Shown: in pieces, positions 10,067-29,938 of the stretch
Layout: each line of letters starts with the position of its first letter
Numbering within the stretch: the first letter of the stretch is position 1
Origin: Segetibacter sp.
GTDB lineage: Bacteria; Bacteroidota; Bacteroidia; Chitinophagales; Chitinophagaceae
Length of the DNA stretch: 64,000 bases
Assembly (NCBI GenBank): GCA_028288485.1
Contig: JAQBNO010000088.1
Span: 1 to 64,000 of the forward strand
Direction of reading: 5' to 3'
The notes under the pieces: model-generated
What the model was told of the DNA's origin: nothing
Databases searched by the model: none
The model's input: only the letters and a program-made list of their open reading frames with translations
Program-made: the position numbers and the translations under genes

Positions 10067-10269
10067 GAAGCTGAGTAAGGAATCCATGCAGGTAACCCCC
10101 AACTTGTTCTAATAAACTACTACTTTAATTATAATCTGTAATCCTGCAAGCCGCTTTTAAAATTTGACCCATTTCACGGACTTATTAAAAAACTTTGTTC
10201 TTTTTTTAGCGCTCGTACGATAATTGATTTCTTTACTTTGTGCTAATTTTTTTAAGCAACTCCACTATA

Positions 10270-13197
10270 ATGAAATTTTTGCTAACCCCGGTTCTCCTTT
10301 TTGTTTTTGCAACATCTTTTGGGCAGTATCATAGTAGCCTACCTGCTGGCGAATGGGTCGACAGTGTTTTTAAATCCCTTAACAAAAAGCAAAGAATCGC
10401 CCAACTGATGATTATTAGAGCGCATAGCAACTTAGGCCAAGAACACGTTACTTCGGTTACAGCGCTGATAAAAAAGTATGACGTGGGCGGATTGTGCTTC
10501 TTCCAGGGCGGGCCGGTGAGGCAGGCTAACCTTACAAATTTGTACCAGGGAATTGCAAAAACGCCATTAATGATCACGATAGACGGGGAGTGGGGATTAG
10601 GAATGCGCCTCGACAGCGTTACAAACTTTCAAAGGCAGTTAATGATAGGTGCTGTTACCGATGCCAAACTGGTGTATAAATTTGGACATGCCGTAGCAGA
10701 ACAATGTAAAAGATTGGGAATTCATGTAAACTTTGCGCCGGTTGTTGATATCAACAACAACCCCGATAACCCTGTTATAAACGACCGAAGCTTTGGCGAG
10801 GATAAATACAAAGTGGCTCTATATGGCGTACAATACATGAAAGGGATGCAGGACGCCGGCATAATGGCCTGCGCAAAACATTTTCCCGGTCACGGCGATG
10901 TAGCCGTCGATTCGCACCTTGACCTTCCTGTAATTAATAAGACCCGTCAACAACTCGACTCTCTTGAGCTGTATCCTTTCCGGCAACTGATTAAAGAAGG
11001 TGTGGGCAGCGTAATGATTGCACATTTATACATTCCCTCAATTGATACGATTTCCAACCAGGCAACTTCGCTTTCTTATAATAATGTCACAGGGCTTCTA
11101 AAAAATGAGCTGGGCTTCAAGGGGCTTACTTTTACCGACGCGCTGGAAATGAAGGGAGTGACGAAATATTTTCCTGCAGGCGAGGCTTCTGTTCAATCAT
11201 TAATTGCCGGCAACGATATGCTGTGTTTACCGGAAGACATCCCGGGAAGCATAAAAAAGATCCGCAAAGCCATCAGGAAGCGACAAGTAACAAAAGATGA
11301 TTTCCAGGCAAGGGTTAAAAAAGTGCTTCTCGCAAAATACAACCTCGGACTCAATAAGTTCGATACCATACAAACCGCTAACCTTACCAACGACCTGAAC
11401 GCAAACACAAATGAATTAAAGACTCTAATTTCTCAAAATGCAATTACTCTTTTAAAGCTGGCAAATAAAGATATCCTTCCGTTGAAAGCTAAAAAAATTG
11501 CTTATCTCGGAGTTGGTATCGATAAACCAAATGCTTTTGCCAACAGGCTTAAACAGGATTTTGTTGCTGACGTATTCACCTTTAACTATAGAAATGATAC
11601 GAGTAGGGTTGCCAGGCTGGTTGATTCATTGAAAGGACATTACGAACTCGTAGTAATTGGCATGCATAATTACAGTCGTCGACCAGCCAACCGGTTTGGC
11701 ATTTCTCCTGCAGCTTACCAGTTAATTAACGAGGTTCAATCGCAAACCAATGCGGTTACCTTTGTTTTCGGAAATCCGTATGCAATGAAAAATATTGCAA
11801 CTTCATCGGCTAACCTCGTAGCCTGTTATGAAGACGATGAAATTACCCAACTAACGGCGGCAGATGTATTACAGGGTAAGGTGATGCCAAAAGGCAAACT
11901 TCCGGTTACAGTAAGTGATGAATTAAAATTTGGAGCAGGCATGTCAATCAACAATTTCTTTCCGTTGGTTTCCGCCGAAAGTGTAGGTTTTAACCCCGCT
12001 ACACTCAACAAAATTGACTCCATCGCAAACGATGCGATAAAAAAACATGCAGCTCCGGGTTGCGTAGTGCTGGCTGCAAAAGATGGTAAGGTGGCATTTC
12101 AGCGTTCGTATGGCTATACAAATTACGATAGCGTTGAGGCTGTGAATAATGATATGATTTACGACCTCGCGTCAGTAACCAAAATATCTGCTACCGCCGT
12201 TTCTGTGATGAAATTGTATGAAGAAGGCCGACTGGATATCGACAAAACGCTCGGAGACTATTTACCCTGGGTAAAAGGCAGCAACAAGGAAAATATTAAA
12301 TTAAGAAACCTGCTCCTCCACCAGGCCGGGCTTGTAGCCTGGATTCCTTTTTATGCCGAAACGCTCGATAAGCAAGGAAAACCACTTCCTGCTATTTATA
12401 GCCCTGTTCAAACAGATTCTTTTTCAATACGGGTGGCGGAAAATATATACATGCGTAACAGCTGGAGAGATACCATGTACAAGCGTATACTTACCAGTAA
12501 ATTAACCGAACCCAATAAATATGTTTACAGCGATCTTGATTTTATTTTCCTCGGAAATGTTGTGGAAGCAATAACCGGCAAACCGCTGGAAGAATATGTA
12601 AAACAAACCTTTTACACTCCGCTTCAAATGACTACTACTTCGTTCAGGCCAAGGGATCATTTTGCGCTGGGTGCAATTGCTCCTACAGAGCACGATAAAG
12701 CATGGAGACAACAATTGCTGAGAGGTGATGTTCACGACCCCGGAGCTGCTATGTTTGGTGGAGTTGCGGGTCATGCCGGCTTGTTCAGTAATGCGTACGA
12801 TCTTGCTATCCTGTACCAAATGCTTTTAAATGGTGGCGAGATGAACGGAGTTCGTTACCTGGAAAAAGCCACGATCGATAAATTTACTGCTTACTCAACT
12901 AATGTTAGCCGCCGCGGACTGGGCTTCGATAAACCTGAAAAAGACAATGCCACACGAAGAGATCCTTATCCCACTTTAAGTGCTTCTCCGTTAACTTTCG
13001 GTCATACCGGTTTTACAGGCACCTGCGTTTGGGCCGATCCTGCAACTAATCTTATCTATATCTTCCTATCTAACCGTGTAACGCCGGAAGGAGAAAATAA
13101 TAAGTTACTGAGAATGAATGTAAGATCGAACATCCAGGAAATTATTTACAAGGCGCTTAATAGCAACAATTTAAAACCGATAACACAGCGTAAATAA
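10270..13197 (+). CDS. Bifunctional GH3 (NagZ-like) glycosidase / serine beta-lactamase-like fusion
   Basis: The start chosen is ATG 10270, which gives a good signal peptide (to ATSFGQ); a GTG 30 bp upstream is in frame. Residues about 30-370 form a GH3 domain of NagZ type: KHFPGHGDVAVDSHLDLP with catalytic His H208, and FTDALEMKGV with nucleophile D290. Residues 370-560 look like the GH3 alpha/beta sandwich. Residues about 575-960 are a beta-lactamase/DD-peptidase fold with S635-x-x-K638 (SVTK), Y753-S-D and H912-T-G. The fusion suggests coupled action on muropeptides or cell-wall glycans in the periplasm: beta-N-acetylhexosaminidase plus a serine hydrolase on the peptide or an ester. This architecture is known in Bacteroidota; the exact substrate is inference. 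Confidence 0.9.
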   Translation: MKFLLTPVLLFVFATSFGQYHSSLPAGEWVDSVFKSLNKKQRIAQLMIIRAHSNLGQEHVTSVTALIKKYDVGGLCFFQGGPVRQANLTNLYQGIAKTPLMITIDGEWGLGMRLDSVTNFQRQLMIGAVTDAKLVYKFGHAVAEQCKRLGIHVNFAPVVDINNNPDNPVINDRSFGEDKYKVALYGVQYMKGMQDAGIMACAKHFPGHGDVAVDSHLDLPVINKTRQQLDSLELYPFRQLIKEGVGSVMIAHLYIPSIDTISNQATSLSYNNVTGLLKNELGFKGLTFTDALEMKGVTKYFPAGEASVQSLIAGNDMLCLPEDIPGSIKKIRKAIRKRQVTKDDFQARVKKVLLAKYNLGLNKFDTIQTANLTNDLNANTNELKTLISQNAITLLKLANKDILPLKAKKIAYLGVGIDKPNAFANRLKQDFVADVFTFNYRNDTSRVARLVDSLKGHYELVVIGMHNYSRRPANRFGISPAAYQLINEVQSQTNAVTFVFGNPYAMKNIATSSANLVACYEDDEITQLTAADVLQGKVMPKGKLPVTVSDELKFGAGMSINNFFPLVSAESVGFNPATLNKIDSIANDAIKKHAAPGCVVLAAKDGKVAFQRSYGYTNYDSVEAVNNDMIYDLASVTKISATAVSVMKLYEEGRLDIDKTLGDYLPWVKGSNKENIKLRNLLLHQAGLVAWIPFYAETLDKQGKPLPAIYSPVQTDSFSIRVAENIYMRNSWRDTMYKRILTSKLTEPNKYVYSDLDFIFLGNVVEAITGKPLEEYVKQTFYTPLQMTTTSFRPRDHFALGAIAPTEHDKAWRQQLLRGDVHDPGAAMFGGVAGHAGLFSNAYDLAILYQMLLNGGEMNGVRYLEKATIDKFTAYSTNVSRRGLGFDKPEKDNATRRDPYPTLSASPLTFGHTGFTGTCVWADPATNLIYIFLSNRVTPEGENNKLLRMNVRSNIQEIIYKALNSNNLKPITQRK

Positions 13198-13264
13198 GAT
13201 GACCTCAGGGAGTATAAATTACTGTATGAACGTACATTTATTCCTACGATGAATAGGTTTGTAT

Positions 13265-13445
13265 ATTGCCTTTTGGTACAAGCATTGTATTACATAGCAT
13301 CATCGTTGCCACGCTCGGTTCACAGGCAGCCTTTCATAGCAGCCATGGCAGTTTTGCCTTGAGCCTCCTAAAAATTATACTGAGCCTGTCGAAGGCTTAC
13401 TATAAGTTCATCGGCAATCCTGTCGGCATCTTTTATTAAGTTGTA
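13265..13445 (+). repeat. Intergenic repeat copy (CGTTGCCACGCTCGG subtype)
   Basis: It starts TTTTGGTACAAGCATTG, then GCATCATCGTTGCCACGCTC, CATAGCAGCCATGGCAGTTT and GAGCCTGTCGAAGGC. It aligns over some 60 bases with the copy at 17887-17975 with only about ten differences. It sits between convergent genes. The rest of the gap down to 13528 shows nothing recognisable. Confidence 0.7.
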
Positions 13446-13527
13446 AGTAACCGAACATCGACTGTGTTGCCGAAATAAAGAGTAATCGTTCCCAAATTTT
13501 CCCGTTATTCTTACTTCTCTAAAGTCA

Positions 13528-13562
13528 TAAAAAAGCCTGCTTAATTTTGAGCAGGCTTTATC
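13528..13562 (-). terminator. Intrinsic terminator of the small minus-strand cluster
   Basis: Read on the minus strand, a ten-base stem AAAGCCTGCT / AGCAGGCTTT with an eight-base loop is followed by a T run. It lies 35 bp after the stop of the 54-residue ORF and supports that ORF being the end of a real transcript. Confidence 0.8.
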
Positions 13563-13596
13563 GTAAATACTTGTAAGAATAGTTTAAAAGGGAGAC

Positions 13597-13761
13597 TTAA
13601 CAATAAGCCCCTTTACTACCTATAAATTCTGCTTCCGTTTTCCTGGCTTTTAATTTCTTTTTGAATTCTTTCAAACGCTTAATTGCTTTCAGCTTAAATT
13701 GTAAATCTGCATAAGACTTATAATAACCTAAAGTGAATTCTACGGGATATGCTATGTACAT
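13597..13761 (-). CDS. Small basic protein, 54 residues, unknown
   Basis: ATG to TAA encodes a 54-residue peptide starting MYIAYPVEFTLGYYK and ending SKGAYC, with a strongly basic helix in the middle (KLKAIKRLKEFKKKLKARK). Support comes from the intact frame, the intrinsic terminator 35 bp downstream and its place at the end of the minus-strand cluster behind the LacI-operator promoter. The basic helix could bind nucleic acid or membrane, but no family is recognised. It lies 64 bp after the truncated oxidoreductase-domain gene. Confidence 0.5.
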   Translation of the reverse strand: MYIAYPVEFTLGYYKSYADLQFKLKAIKRLKEFKKKLKARKTEAEFIGSKGAYC

Positions 13762-13825
13762 AATACTTTAATTTAATTGTTAATGATTTTTAGTTCCATT
13801 AATCCTTTTGCTGCTGTAGGGAAGC

Positions 13826-14116
13826 TTATATAACTCTTACCGACTTGCCTGCCTGCATTATTGGTTTAACAAACCCCAGATGAGTGGCCGATACAATTAC
13901 CAATGTTATATCGCTATCATTTACAATAGCTTCTACGTTATTCACGATCTCCGCGTTAGGATATTCTTTTTGAATTCCTTCAGCCGTACTGTTGCTAACG
14001 AAAATTTTCTTCCAGTAAAACTTCTCCATCCTGTTACTTAAAGAAGTCTGGAAAAAGTCTTCCTTCATGTCGCATCCTATTATACCTGCATTTATTGTAT
14101 GAATGGTAGTGTTCAT
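13826..14116 (-). CDS. Mini Gfo/Idh/MocA-like NAD(P)-binding domain protein
   Basis: A 96-residue ORF. NAGIIGCDM is a Rossmann glycine-rich start, YPNAEIVNNVEAIVNDSDITLVIVSATHLGFVKPIMQAGKSVRVI follows the N-terminal domain of Gfo/Idh/MocA oxidoreductases (yPnaevv..eeli.d..IdlVvi....h...v..al.AGKhV). Whole enzymes are about 350 residues; this one stops cleanly where the catalytic domain should begin, lacking the EKP-type motif. The ATG, the intact frame and an orderly end suggest a genuine short protein, perhaps a nucleotide sensor, rather than random decay, although a truncated remnant cannot be excluded. It belongs to the minus-strand cluster transcribed away from the LacI-family gene. Confidence 0.6.
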   Translation of the reverse strand: MNTTIHTINAGIIGCDMKEDFFQTSLSNRMEKFYWKKIFVSNSTAEGIQKEYPNAEIVNNVEAIVNDSDITLVIVSATHLGFVKPIMQAGKSVRVI

Positions 14117-14176
14117 AATCTTTAGTTTTAGCTACATGTTTTCTTTACATGTAATAATGAAATTTATTTGTGTTTT

Positions 14177-14275
14177 TTAAAAACGCCTGTCCACGGCTAT
14201 CAATATTGCCCTTATAAAACGGAAAGGTGATCGTGCAAATGCACTAATCGGCGCACTTTGTGCGTTTTGTCCCAT
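14177..14275 (-). CDS. Possible 32-residue peptide
   Basis: ATG 14275 to TAA gives 32 residues (MGQNAQSAPISAFARSPFRF at the start, then IRAILIAVDRRF). The start lies four bases after the stop of the preceding 38-residue ORF, an operon-like arrangement. No homologue is recognised and the length allows chance; reported because it lies in a promoter-to-terminator unit. Confidence 0.3.
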   Translation of the reverse strand: MGQNAQSAPISAFARSPFRFIRAILIAVDRRF

Positions 14276-14279
14276 GGTT

Positions 14280-14396
14280 TTAATTCGCTTTAGCAACCGT
14301 TGTTATGTAAGCTGATTTTTTTACGGTGATTTGTATTTGTCGAAACAGCACTAACCACTTCTGTGATAAACTTGTGATCTTCATGGTTGTTTTCAT
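14280..14396 (-). CDS. Possible 38-residue peptide
   Basis: ATG 14396 to TAA encodes 38 residues beginning MKTTMKITSLSQKWLVLFRQ, basic and partly hydrophobic. It is the first ORF after the hairpin at 14424-14450 and is followed at once by the 32-residue ORF. No known family. Confidence 0.3.
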   Translation of the reverse strand: MKTTMKITSLSQKWLVLFRQIQITVKKSAYITTVAKAN

Positions 14397-14423
14397 AATG
14401 ATTCTTTTAATAGTTAATAAAAT

Positions 14424-14450
14424 AGAAAAGCCCGCTAACTCTTAGCAGGC
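14424..14450 (-). terminator. Hairpin plus T run in the leader of the small-ORF cluster (attenuator-like)
   Basis: On the minus strand GCCTGCTAA, a three-base loop GAG, then TTAGCGGGC (one G.T pair) and TTTTCTATTTT. It looks like an intrinsic terminator, but it lies about 80 bases after the predicted start of transcription and before the small ORFs, so it may control read-through. Confidence 0.5.
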
Positions 14451-14536
14451 AGGCAATCATTTTATCGTCTTGGGGTTCTGTGTAAGTTCTTTTTTAGTAC
14501 TTATACTAAAACCACCGGCTACATTTTATTCTGATA

Positions 14537-14544
14537 CAAAGATA
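14537..14544 (-). promoter_or_regulatory. -7 promoter element of the small-ORF cluster
   Basis: TATCTTTG on the minus strand, a perfect match to the Bacteroidota TAnnTTTG element. Operator 1 lies 8 bp upstream, over the -33 region. Confidence 0.55.
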
Positions 14545-14552
14545 CTTGTTTT

Positions 14553-14568
14553 GTTTAAACGATTAAAC
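14553..14568. promoter_or_regulatory. LacI-type operator 1
   Basis: GTTTAAACGATTAAAC is a 16-base CG-centred palindrome with one mismatched pair, the typical form of LacI-family operators. It overlaps the -33 region of the minus-strand promoter. Confidence 0.6.
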
Positions 14569-14674
14569 TAGTTATTGTTAAAAGTCATCTCTTAACCTTT
14601 TGATAATATGCCCTCATTTTAAAAGACAGGTACAGGTTGTATCATTTAGTTGCTCCTGGGACAAATATAATACC

Positions 14675-14682
14675 TAAATTTG
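14675..14682 (+). promoter_or_regulatory. -7 promoter element of the LacI-family gene
   Basis: TAAATTTG fits TAnnTTTG exactly; a TTG at 14650-14652 with a 22-base spacer can serve as the -33 element. Confidence 0.55.
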
Positions 14683-14683
14683 T

Positions 14684-14695
14684 TTAAACGTTTAA
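14684..14695. promoter_or_regulatory. LacI-type operator 2
   Basis: TTAAACGTTTAA is a perfect 12-base CG-centred palindrome. It starts one base after the -7 element, so it would cover the transcription start: a classic repressor position. It shares its half-site with operator 1. Confidence 0.65.
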
Positions 14696-14736
14696 CTACC
14701 GTTCGTTAGCTTTTTATATTAATCACTTGTTGCCGT

Positions 14737-15753
14737 ATGAAAAAAAAGACCTCTTTAAAGGATATTGCTCAAAAAGTTGGAGTTTCAACAGCCCTGGTAT
14801 CGTATGTATTGAATAACAAAAAGGAGGGCAGGATAAGTAAACAAATAGCAGAGAAAATAAGGGCGACAGCAATAGAATTAAATTATAAGACCAACCAAAT
14901 AGCCCGCAGCCTTAAAACAAACAAAACGTATACAATAGGTTTAGTTGTAGCTGATATTGCCAACGCTTTTTCCAGCACCCTTGCACGGATCATAGAAGAT
15001 GAGGCAGAAAAAAATAATTATACAGTATTGTTCGGAAGTTCGGATGAAAATGCGCAGAAATCAGAAAAACTGATCAATGTATTATTAGATCGCCAGGTAG
15101 ATGGTTTAATAATAGCACCGGTAGAAGATACCGCATCACAGATCGTTCAACTACAGGAAAACGAAGTGCCTTTTGTTTTGATCGACCGTTATTTTCCTGA
15201 CATGAAAACAAATTATGTCGCAATGGATAATTATAAAGCTGCTCATGCTGCGGTGTCTCATCTCATTAATGGTGGTAACAAACGTATTGGGTTGGTAACT
15301 TTTAAAACCACTATTTTTAATATCGTTGAACGAAAAAGAGGTTACGTTACCGCACTCAAGGAATATAAAACATCGGCAAAAAGAAGCTGGATCAGGGAAG
15401 TGAGTATTCAAAATGCACAGGAAGAAGTTAGAGAAGCGATTGATCAACTGCTTTCACTTTCCGAACCCGTGGATGCGATCCTCTTTTCATCAAACCTGTT
15501 ATCTACGTATGCACTAAAGTACCTCAATACACTGCCTGTTAAAGTGCCCGATCAATTAAATATTGTCACGATTGATCAGTCAGATGCATCTGATACCTTT
15601 TATGCACCACTCACTTATATCAGGCAGCCTTTACTGGAAATGGGACAGCTGGCGACAAAAATTTTATTAGAAAGCATAAGTAAGAATAATAAAATAACCC
15701 AGGTGAACCTGGAGCCGGAATTAGTTGTTGGAAAGTCAACTTCTAAAGTATAA
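14737..15753 (+). CDS. LacI-family transcriptional regulator
   Basis: A 338-residue protein of normal length. The N-terminal helix-turn-helix reads SLKDIAQKVGVSTALVSYVLNN (residues 5-26) with the hinge helix NYKTNQIARSLKTNKTYTIGLVV. Residues 62-338 form a periplasmic-binding-protein-like effector domain (VADIANAFSSTLARIIEDEAEK, DRQVDGLIIAPVED, GGNKRIGLVTF, ending in QVNLEPELVVGKS). It probably senses a sugar or sugar derivative. Two CG-centred operators (14553-14568, 14684-14695) with the same half-site sit between it and the divergent small-ORF cluster, so it probably represses itself and that cluster. Effector unknown. Confidence 0.93.
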   Translation: MKKKTSLKDIAQKVGVSTALVSYVLNNKKEGRISKQIAEKIRATAIELNYKTNQIARSLKTNKTYTIGLVVADIANAFSSTLARIIEDEAEKNNYTVLFGSSDENAQKSEKLINVLLDRQVDGLIIAPVEDTASQIVQLQENEVPFVLIDRYFPDMKTNYVAMDNYKAAHAAVSHLINGGNKRIGLVTFKTTIFNIVERKRGYVTALKEYKTSAKRSWIREVSIQNAQEEVREAIDQLLSLSEPVDAILFSSNLLSTYALKYLNTLPVKVPDQLNIVTIDQSDASDTFYAPLTYIRQPLLEMGQLATKILLESISKNNKITQVNLEPELVVGKSTSKV

Positions 15754-15799
15754 TGGAAAGTCGCCCGACATTGTAAAGCAGCAACTCATCTCCTCGCTG

Positions 15800-15985
15800 G
15801 AAAAACAGGTTGATTAGTGGCTACCAATTGCTTCGCCAGGCGGCGTAAGGCGAACGAATAAACGAGCCGCTGCATCACCACTCTCTTTAATTGGCCGATA
15901 CGGTTCAACAGTAAAAGTGTGCGACGCAACAGTAGTTTAATAGAAGTTATTGGCTTAGTACAAAAAAAACAAGTTTAAACATTGA
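15800..15985. repeat. Convergent gap with degenerate repeat fragments
   Basis: The 254 bp between the lacI-type gene and rnhB contain GCGACGCAAC (15920-15930) followed by a spacer and a TTGGCTTAGTACAAAAAAAAC end, a diverged reverse-orientation copy of the intergenic repeat. Nothing else is recognisable. Confidence 0.4.
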
Positions 15986-16007
15986 GCGAGGTATAGCGGA
16001 ACGCCGC

Positions 16008-28786: not shown

Positions 28787-29938
28787 ATGGAAGAAACACA
28801 AAGATCTCTGCCAGCCATACGACTACGTATCAGTTTATTCTTTTTCTTTTACGGATTTACTTTTGCTTCGTGGGCTTCACGAATTCCAACCATTCAGCAA
28901 AACCTGCATTTATCAGAAACGCAACTTGGTGCGGTATTGCTTGCTATGCCTGTCGGATCGTTTATCACACTTCCCTTCTCGGGGTATCTTACTTCGAAAG
29001 TAGGAAGCCGGAAAGTAGTAATTTTTGCCGCTTTCATTTATAGCTTTTTATTAACCGGGATCGGACTTTCTTCCACTGTTTTACAGTTGACAATCTGCCT
29101 TTTTCTTTTTGGGTCTGCAGGTAATATGATGAATATTGCCATTAATACCCAGGCGCTGGCCCTGGAACGATTATATCAAAAAGTCATCATCTCTTCCTTT
29201 CATGGTATGTGGAGCGTTGCCGGGCTGGTTGCTGCTTCGTTTGGGACTTACCTTATAGGTAAAGCATTTCCTGTAAACAATCATCTTTTGTTGGTTAGCG
29301 GCATATCGCTTGGAAGCTTCATTTTGTGTATGCCTTACCTTTTACACGACCAGCCGAAGCAGCAGGAAAAACGTCCATTCTTTCTAAAACCCGGAAAAGC
29401 TTTTATGGGTCTTGGATTCATTGCCTTCTGTTCAATGATCTGCCAGGGAGCAATGTTTGACTGGAGCGGAGTATACTTCAAAAAAGTAGTTACCGATAAC
29501 CCGGCTTATATAGGTATCGGCTATACTGCATTCATGGTGTCTATGACATTCGTACGCTTTATAACCGATTGGCTGACTCAAAGGGTAGGATTTAAAAAAA
29601 TTATTACCTGGTGCGGCATAGCTACAACTGCTGGTTTATTAATTGCCGTTTTCCTGCCTTACCTCGTACCTGCTACGCTCGGTCTTTTGCTGGTAGGAAT
29701 GGGTGTTTCGCCTGCCGTTCCGCTAGTTTTCAGCGCCGCGGGAAATTCAAAAAAACTACCGGCTCCTGTTGCCATAGCCGCTGTATCTTCTATAGGTTTT
29801 ATCGGGCTATTAATTGGGCCCCCAATCATAGGTTTTGTAGCCGGATTAACAAGTTTAAAAATTTCGTTTTTAATACTTTCTTTTTTTGGGTTAGCTATAT
29901 CCGTTTTAGCTGTATTGTATAAAGGGGAGGAAACATAA
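28787..29938 (+). CDS. MFS transporter (YbjJ/fucose-permease-like)
   Basis: A 383-residue inner-membrane protein with about twelve hydrophobic helices. FFFYGFTFASWASRIPTIQQNLHLSETQLG, the loop GYLTSKVGSRKVV between helices 2 and 3, and NTQALALERLYQKVIISSFHGMWSVAGLVAA are typical of the YbjJ-like branch of the major facilitator superfamily, close to sugar/drug exporters. Substrate cannot be inferred. The protein is slightly short but complete. It ends before a 365-bp gap leading to a pseudogene. Confidence 0.85.
   Translation: MEETQRSLPAIRLRISLFFFFYGFTFASWASRIPTIQQNLHLSETQLGAVLLAMPVGSFITLPFSGYLTSKVGSRKVVIFAAFIYSFLLTGIGLSSTVLQLTICLFLFGSAGNMMNIAINTQALALERLYQKVIISSFHGMWSVAGLVAASFGTYLIGKAFPVNNHLLLVSGISLGSFILCMPYLLHDQPKQQEKRPFFLKPGKAFMGLGFIAFCSMICQGAMFDWSGVYFKKVVTDNPAYIGIGYTAFMVSMTFVRFITDWLTQRVGFKKIITWCGIATTAGLLIAVFLPYLVPATLGLLLVGMGVSPAVPLVFSAAGNSKKLPAPVAIAAVSSIGFIGLLIGPPIIGFVAGLTSLKISFLILSFFGLAISVLAVLYKGEET

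Follow-up and report, generated by a model that had tools for sequence, protein, structure and literature searches.

Organization of the locus

We consider a small divergent gene cluster in Segetibacter sp., in which a gene for a LacI-family repressor stands beside a minus-strand unit of very small open reading frames (ORFs). The cluster lies in a stretch of 64,000 nucleotides (nt) from GenBank assembly GCA_028288485.1 (JAQBNO010000088.1, contig C164 of this 6.4-Mb Chitinophagaceae genome); the whole stretch is called the window below. Judged by comparison across genomes of soil bacteria of the Chitinophagaceae, the unit formed by the repressor and a 96-residue protein that we call mini-Gfo is real. 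It extends to more genes than the window contains, and it appears to be undescribed so far.

The lacI gene (14737..15753, plus strand) encodes 338 residues with both domains of its family, PF00356 at 45 bits (cut-off 27) and PF13377 at 75.7 bits (cut-off 26.5). The operator of the minus-strand unit, O1 (14553..14568), reads GTTTAAACGATTAAAC and is the only exact match of the strict 16-mer operator pattern in the genome; when up to two mismatches are allowed, 22 sites are found, versus 10 for the reversed control pattern. An earlier note, made from the sequence alone, had paired O1 with a minus-strand TAnnTTTG, the -7 promoter element of Bacteroidota, and this element is indeed present (TATCTTTG, 14537..14544, minus strand), 8 nt past O1. 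The second operator-like palindrome, O2 (GTTTAAACGTTTAACT, 14682..14697, two mismatches to the strict 16-mer), had been put at 14684-14695, covering the start of lacI; it actually falls within the promoter region of lacI, and about 40 nt separate its end from the ATG downstream. Autoregulation of lacI through O2 is possible, and near lacI in loci L084 and L085 there is a second site with one mismatch.

From its promoter, the minus-strand unit runs through a leader with a hairpin and T tract (14420..14462, stem 14430-14450), a 38-residue ORF (14280..14396), a 32-residue ORF (14177..14275), mini-Gfo (13826..14116) and a 54-residue ORF (13597..13761) to an intrinsic terminator at about 13528..13559, all on the minus strand. 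The terminator, as previously described, is there (fold z-score -3.8). The 38-residue ORF starts 23 nt after the hairpin and has the position of a module gene, and it is unrecognisable by sequence. The 54-residue product is a small basic protein of the form MYxxY...YY...F..KA..RL, seen in Segetibacter only. All elements described in the earlier note can thus be found in the sequence, and its picture of small proteins encoded between a promoter and a terminator, with a LacI of their own, stands; what does not hold is the placement of O2, and the 32-residue frame has no counterpart in relatives.

A conserved half of a Gfo/Idh protein

Mini-Gfo corresponds to the Rossmann-type N-terminal half of a Gfo/Idh protein, and its match to Pfam PF01408 reaches 18.1 bits, below the cut-off of 24. 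An AlphaFold model computed with six sequences has a mean confidence (pLDDT) of 79 and is weak at residues 1-4 and 24-30. In a fold search, its best matches are the Gfo/Idh proteins 3gfg and 3gdo (E values 6e-6 to 9e-5; TM-score normalized to the query, 0.71-0.76), and the match is placed in the N-terminal half of the full-length protein; the modeled fold is that of a Rossmann-type domain. Likeness to these oxidoreductases (Gfo/Idh/MocA, YvaA group) is in the fold of one half, with the sequence in register up to GKHV. In the full-length proteins the text continues as GKHVIVEKP; in mini-Gfo it becomes GKHVRIV followed by the stop codon, which falls at the EKP position. Compared with them, mini-Gfo has 91-99 residues rather than about 350 and lacks the GxGxxG loop, the EKP motif and the C-terminal domain. 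Among 36 family members, none has G.G..[GAS] of the nicotinamide adenine dinucleotide (NAD) loop in its first 40 residues, and none has an EKP or ERP catalytic motif.

When the single protein is used as the query, 7 of the 10 genomes of the genus yield short homologs that stand alone. Profile searches raise the count to at least 29 of 294 family genomes (short frames counted) and, with a broader profile and frames of up to 139 residues, to at least 36 of 394 Chitinophagaceae genomes, G176 being matched only partly; these are lower bounds, because the genome samples overlap and only the top candidates per genome were scored. Across 396 genomes of the order, at E 1e-9, the only short frame outside the family is one of 106 residues in G446, at a contig edge.

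The earlier note took the 96-residue ORF for a truncated Gfo/Idh domain. It is not simply a truncated gene: the C-terminal end GK.VR[IVLT]. is shared by 30 of the 36 sequences (exceptions L099, L102, L103, L202, L203 and L204), and in the closest pair, L017 and L018, nonsynonymous divergence (dN) is 0.065 against a synonymous divergence (dS) of 0.90, most other pairs being saturated. The conserved frame and C-terminus, together with this ratio, lead us to reject a pseudogene. The open frames of the homologs run from 80 to 139 residues; one member (L104) is shortened to 76. Conservation of length should be given less weight than it seems to deserve, since the start codon chosen was the one giving a length closest to 97 residues. 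Mini-Gfo is, as far as sequence can tell, a conserved protein family without NAD loop or EKP motif, and we predict that it is not an enzyme.

One repressor and one operator

Within 1 kb of mini-Gfo, a LacI gene is found in 25 of the 36 loci, and 20 of these 25 are divergent. Of the 36 loci, 27 have an intact operator GKTTAAWCGWTTAAMC, which is followed by TAnnTTTG in 24 of the 27. All 25 LacI-adjacent loci have the intact operator, versus 2 of the 11 others; those two, in S. koreensis and G087, belong to genomes in which the LacI ortholog is located elsewhere. Five loci added later (two of genus g9, three of g5) gave LacI 5/5, operator 5/5, MFS (major facilitator superfamily) gene 5/5 and TAnnTTTG 2/5. 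The comparison of frames and operators across genomes that had been suggested at the outset was carried out, and the core claim was not refuted by it.

In 12 other genomes scanned with an 18-mer allowing one mismatch, seven have exactly one site, always at this promoter, and five have none; the reversed 18-mer gives a match in one of the 12. No perfect operator of the degenerate form occurs in 177 kb of control loci. Two perfect sites do lie ahead of small-protein genes of the module: one in G087 (L238), 197 nt before the ATG and with TATGTTTG, and a second operator near LacI in G135 (L189:4778), ahead of a small protein containing QYWASPN. In G002 (L190), LacI is divergent from a module-type MFS gene with the operator in between, and in G001 (L188) it stands beside an aldolase gene, its divergent side running off the contig.

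The LacI neighbors of mini-Gfo are 47-65% identical to the window LacI, and other LacI genes are mostly at or below 39%; identity alone separates the groups incompletely, because four of the others reach 42-49%. Two such paralogs (L150 and L151, 49% and 45%) are next to what is presumably an L-fucose isomerase gene, a hint at the class of sugar involved. In G004, G005, G008 (88% complete) and G009 there is no comparable LacI at the threshold used, and the best operator sites have 6, 1, 3 and 1 mismatches, respectively. Taken together, the comparison gives good support to a conserved regulatory pairing of one repressor and one operator with mini-Gfo, in which binding by LacI is predicted.

A recurring hairpin element

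The attenuator-like hairpin that had been noticed in the leader is present, and it recurs as a conserved element with the layout GATTGCCTGC-loop-GCAGGC-T tract. The 113-nt leader of the window folds better than 199 of 200 shuffled sequences (z-score -2.9), and the fold of the S. koreensis leader is unexceptional (-1.0). In 1.14 Mb of redundant sequence there are 25 distinct GATTGCCTGC sites, 18 with the hairpin and T tract and 7 without. Each of the 18 lies directly before a module gene or a HAD gene, if the 38-residue ORF of the window is counted by its position. When these 18 are used as seeds of a structural model, standard pairs make up 94.3% of pair cells; nearly no variation is seen in the outer six pairs, and the inner two vary, with eight both-sided changes (a number as high in 2 of 500 shuffles, and far lower when the structure is slid).

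Searching 95 loci (643 kb) with the model at E ≤ 0.02 returns 26 distinct sites, which are the 18 seeds (the window copy scoring 35.3 bits) and eight new ones in L017, L018, L019, L091, L094, L096, L100 and L204; the L017 site scores equally on both strands. A start codon follows 9-97 nt after the hairpin. The genes so preceded are of FAGPH type (9, see below), MgsA-like (6), MFS (6), FVAWP type (3) and HAD (1), plus the 38-residue ORF (1); no hairpin of the 26 stands directly before mini-Gfo. Most of these loci were chosen for mini-Gfo or small proteins, and the sample is biased to the module; the fair control is therefore a set of 40 stretches, 800 kb in total, of G172 and the window genome. 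It gives a single match, at E 0.01, which is an ordinary terminator whose stem is different, and none of its five GATTGCCTGC sites forms such a hairpin. The terminator of the window unit has a similar core and matches the model weakly (E 0.18). Rfam 15 has no match to the hairpin up to E 1 (window 13000-16000 and six loci). We predict that the element may act as an attenuator.

Small proteins of the module

The earlier note listed four small ORFs. All exist, and conservation as proteins was found only for those of 96 and 54 residues. Relatives of the 54-residue protein follow mini-Gfo in L016-L019, and dN lies below dS in close pairs (0.137 versus 0.99), the window-L018 comparison (0.52 versus 0.75) being uninformative. 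For a wider family, loci L106-L122 were inspected. The member in L106, just upstream of an MFS transporter gene, was kept, and L107-L122 were dropped as shadows of extracytoplasmic function (ECF) sigma genes: in 15 of the 16 the small frame stays open inside a sigma gene whose own reading frame is different, and in L115 it is interrupted by a stop. As an observation in its own right, in those 15 loci an open frame of 44-53 residues with a MYIPYAG-like start begins about 226 nt into the sigma gene; this alternative frame is probably a codon shadow, though strikingly constant.

The 38-residue ORF matches the small-protein family expected at its position at E 0.029 only, by its N-terminus, and it is poorly conserved in S. 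koreensis; the 32-residue ORF has no match to that family. We do not claim that the two are a split YFAGPH leader protein.

That family carries a C-terminal [NH][YF]FAGPH-like motif, and its members are found after mini-Gfo, after an MFS gene or in leaders. A profile from seven seeds matches 13 of 394 genomes, seven of them the seeds and the window genome not among them, and all six new matches, including L236-L238, bear the motif or a close form. MYVA[YG], which resembles MYIAYP of the window, is also found in L233, L234, L236 and L237. Motifs of the FVAWP/YIAYP type occur in L020, L190, L202, L203, L204 and L218, and a similar stretch is found at the N-terminus of the MFS protein in L089, L090, L200 and L201 (fused, genus g9). 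The FVAWP/YIAWP-type proteins near an MFS gene are encoded at L202:1410-1634 (minus strand), L203:5296-5589 (plus), L218:3763-4008 (plus), L204:2042-2242 (minus) and L020:4965-5246 (minus). Most of the five have the motif twice, and the two tested, those of L020 and L204, match no Pfam family up to E 0.1. Overall, [YF][IVFWTL]A.P is present in 16 of 28 such sequences versus 0.2 expected from shuffling, a count that is circular because some of the sequences had been collected by means of a pattern like this one.

A further 56-residue family (..LYNLLFAGRISLKEYLQ..) is seen downstream of the MFS gene in three g5 genomes (L202, L203 and L204); its L204 member matches nothing in Pfam or NCBIfam up to E 0.1. 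For six small proteins tested, Pfam gives nothing up to E 0.1 and NCBIfam nothing better than E 0.087; none of the small products tested reaches the cut-off of a family in either library. A defense origin was set aside because the PADLOC matches are weak and partial, the best, at E 0.0013, being to a short model. A phage origin was set aside as well: four proteins were compared with PHROGs, and none has a match up to E 0.01.

Partner genes

The earlier note found it odd that the unit has no enzyme or transporter. This is true of the unit in the window genome but not of its relatives, where a downstream MFS gene on the same strand occurs in 18 of 36 mini-Gfo loci and an MgsA-like gene in 10 of 36. 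In the window genome we find only paralogs (43-53% identity) of the relatives' module MFS, none of them in the operon. Its mgsA and an MFS paralog are close together on contig C86, with no operator of up to two mismatches nearby. The HAD-like gene of this genome (L157:1049-2072), which we take to be of NagD type, has upstream both an operator with one mismatch (2057-2072) and the hairpin (1955-1993). In G004 (L021), mini-Gfo precedes what is presumably an aldolase gene.

The MgsA-like proteins differ in their active sites. The residues D71, H19 and H98 (E. coli numbering) are kept in four of ten, the canonical copies L017, L018, L019 and L103. The catalytic residues are lost in the other six: all three in L084, L085, L086, L095 and L098, and D71 and H19 in L105, where the contig end cuts the gene before H98. 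The catalytic roles of these residues are taken from PMC7843640, and the residue spacing given there for the C. difficile enzyme fits L018.

Two other genes of the window were seen in passing. One is an MFS paralog (44% identity) at 28787-29938 on the plus strand, with no link to the LacI unit seen; the other, at 10240-13197 on the plus strand, encodes a GH3 glycosidase fused to a beta-lactamase-type domain (985 residues).

Comparison with known systems

Local repressors of the LacI family include LacI, RbsR and Cra. The module has in common with such systems the helix-turn-helix and sugar-binding domains, a CG-centered palindrome, a divergent arrangement (20 of 25 adjacent cases) and possible autoregulation; it differs in its constant target, a small protein predicted not to be an enzyme, and its other targets are MFS and MgsA-like genes rather than a catabolic pathway. 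BglG/LicT and TRAP exemplify attenuation in leaders by RNA-binding proteins of the antiterminator type. The module resembles these attenuators in that a hairpin with a fixed sequence and the look of a terminator immediately precedes the genes predicted to be controlled, but here there is one short hairpin, with no known binding protein and no alternative antiterminator structure identified. In yeast Gal80, a Gfo/Idh fold serves as a regulator. Gal80 is full-length and eukaryotic, and a binding of mini-Gfo to the repressor would be hypothetical.

The enteric SgrR/SgrS/SgrT/SetA system (PMC4021124) is similar in combining a tiny protein, MFS efflux and a HAD phosphatase in a sugar-responsive system, a likeness in way of working only. 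The sequences are unrelated, LacI takes the place of SgrR, no base-pairing RNA is known from the module, and mini-Gfo, the MgsA-like protein and the hairpin element come in addition.

Neither the combination of genes nor the small-protein families nor the RNA element turned up in the libraries and literature searched, a scope that leaves most subscription journals uncovered. Within this scope, the combination, the families and the RNA element would be new, and the repressor and the folds are of known kinds.

Interpretation and alternatives

We propose that the cluster is an accessory module under LacI control that serves sugar export or carbon flux and whose downstream genes are gated by the hairpin, and we give this reading, whose biochemistry we infer, about an even chance. 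LacI would bind the palindrome TGTTTAAWCGWTTAAACA just upstream of TAnnTTTG and repress the minus-strand unit, a step to which the comparison lends good support; through O2 it would perhaps also repress itself. A sugar or sugar phosphate would lift repression, as is usual in the LacI family. The constant product would be mini-Gfo, conserved as described, made together with other small proteins. The MgsA-like, MFS, HAD and small-protein genes are preceded by the hairpin, which is terminator-like and fixed in sequence, and therefore their read-through is probably controlled separately. Judging from the partner genes, the products would adjust a sugar-type MFS transporter, the flux at dihydroxyacetone phosphate, or both, and the cell would vent or redirect excess sugar.

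Several observations weigh against this proposal. At E ≤ 0.02, the hairpin is found in 19 of the 36 mini-Gfo loci and is absent from 17, and no MFS gene was detected in 18 of the 36 (within 2.5 kb, two seed profiles). One MFS group reaches 390.8 bits with the NCBIfam AraJ model, below its cut-off of 499, and the other is weakly TsgA-like (27.9 and 37.7 bits, cut-off 221); YbjJ-like, a label that we have used for an MFS group, is our assumption. The co-occurrence of LacI and operator has a Fisher p of 6e-7 that ignores relatedness, and 31 of the 36 loci served to define the operator motif, the five later ones being from genera already represented. The parts also come apart: L017 and L018 retain an operator with one mismatch in genomes without a LacI ortholog, G135 has a LacI ortholog elsewhere and a mini-Gfo without operator, and in G002, which has hairpin, MFS and LacI, mini-Gfo was not found.

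A more specific version, which would be new, has two tiers of control in Bacteroidota. LacI would govern the making of mini-Gfo, and the hairpin, read by mini-Gfo or another factor, would gate the genes for the exporter, the MgsA relative, the HAD protein and the tiny proteins, in part at unlinked sites; the tiny aromatic-x-Ala-x-Pro proteins (YFAGPH, FVAWP, YIAYP) would work with the exporter. As one joint claim, this is speculative and on balance rather unlikely.

A phosphosugar-stress response that works like SgrR/SgrS/SgrT/SetA of E. coli, in which LacI would sense an accumulating sugar phosphate, small proteins would block uptake, and the exporter, phosphatase and methylglyoxal synthase would drain the pool, is a tentative alternative that we rate as doubtful. 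The recurrence of AraJ-type or other MFS, MgsA and aldolase genes in the module is consistent with it, as is the HAD-like gene of the window genome, which bears both operator and hairpin. In the enteric system (PMC4021124), the 43-residue SgrT inhibits PtsG, SgrS has the HAD phosphatase YigL among its targets, and setA lies just downstream of sgrS. But the role of SetA itself is unresolved, six of the ten MgsA-like neighbors are without key catalytic residues, the 18-mer scan of 12 other genomes gave no second operator, and no inducer is known. Mini-Gfo might instead be the regulator, either binding the hairpin RNA and deciding read-through or acting on LacI as Gal80 does on Gal4. The hairpin does follow mini-Gfo and precede the next gene in many loci, and it appears in leaders of unlinked genes in the mini-Gfo genomes G017, G260, G209, G087 and G000; LacI and mini-Gfo are the most constant pair (25/36), and Gal80 appears at rank 50 of the fold search. 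We nevertheless think this improbable: no RNA-binding motif is known in mini-Gfo, 17 of 36 loci show no hairpin, no mini-Gfo was detected in G002 although the hairpin is there, G642 (L237) is missing from the genomes matched by the mini-Gfo profile, and LacI and mini-Gfo are unlinked in S. koreensis and G087.

That the hairpin is merely the common intrinsic terminator of the lineage, placed between genes by chance and with no regulatory meaning, would fit its appearance and the similar core of the window terminator. It fits poorly with a fixed 5' GATTGCCTGC, including four unpaired bases, in 18 seeds that always lie just before module start codons, or with the 800-kb control, and we regard it as quite improbable. 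The small proteins could also be precursors of secreted peptides, with the MFS protein as their exporter, as the YIAxP/FVAWP proteins near an MFS gene might suggest; against this, the conserved motif is C-terminal rather than in a leader, in genus g9 the MFS protein appears to carry such a stretch as a fusion at its own N-terminus, and no modification enzyme was noticed among ORFs read by eye, where no dedicated search was made. We consider the idea very improbable. Finally, the cluster might be the decaying remnant of a Gfo/Idh operon, made of pseudogene fragments and chance ORFs. The unsupported 32-residue ORF, the unrecognisable 38-residue ORF and the 76-residue mini-Gfo of L104 would agree with this; a C-terminus and frame conserved in 36 genomes, with dN far below dS, do not. 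For the 96- and 54-residue genes, decay is already contradicted, and as an account of the whole it is scarcely credible.

Significance

Unnamed small-protein families, a gutted dehydrogenase and an RNA element not in Rfam are brought here under one predicted regulator and can therefore be tested together. The case also illustrates that the call of a truncated gene can conceal a real family. That many species retain enzymes which have lost their catalytic parts suggests that sugar export or the dihydroxyacetone phosphate branch point is regulated at the protein level. If the two-tier version is true, sugar overflow in these bacteria would be controlled by sensor-like pseudoenzymes together with an RNA code.

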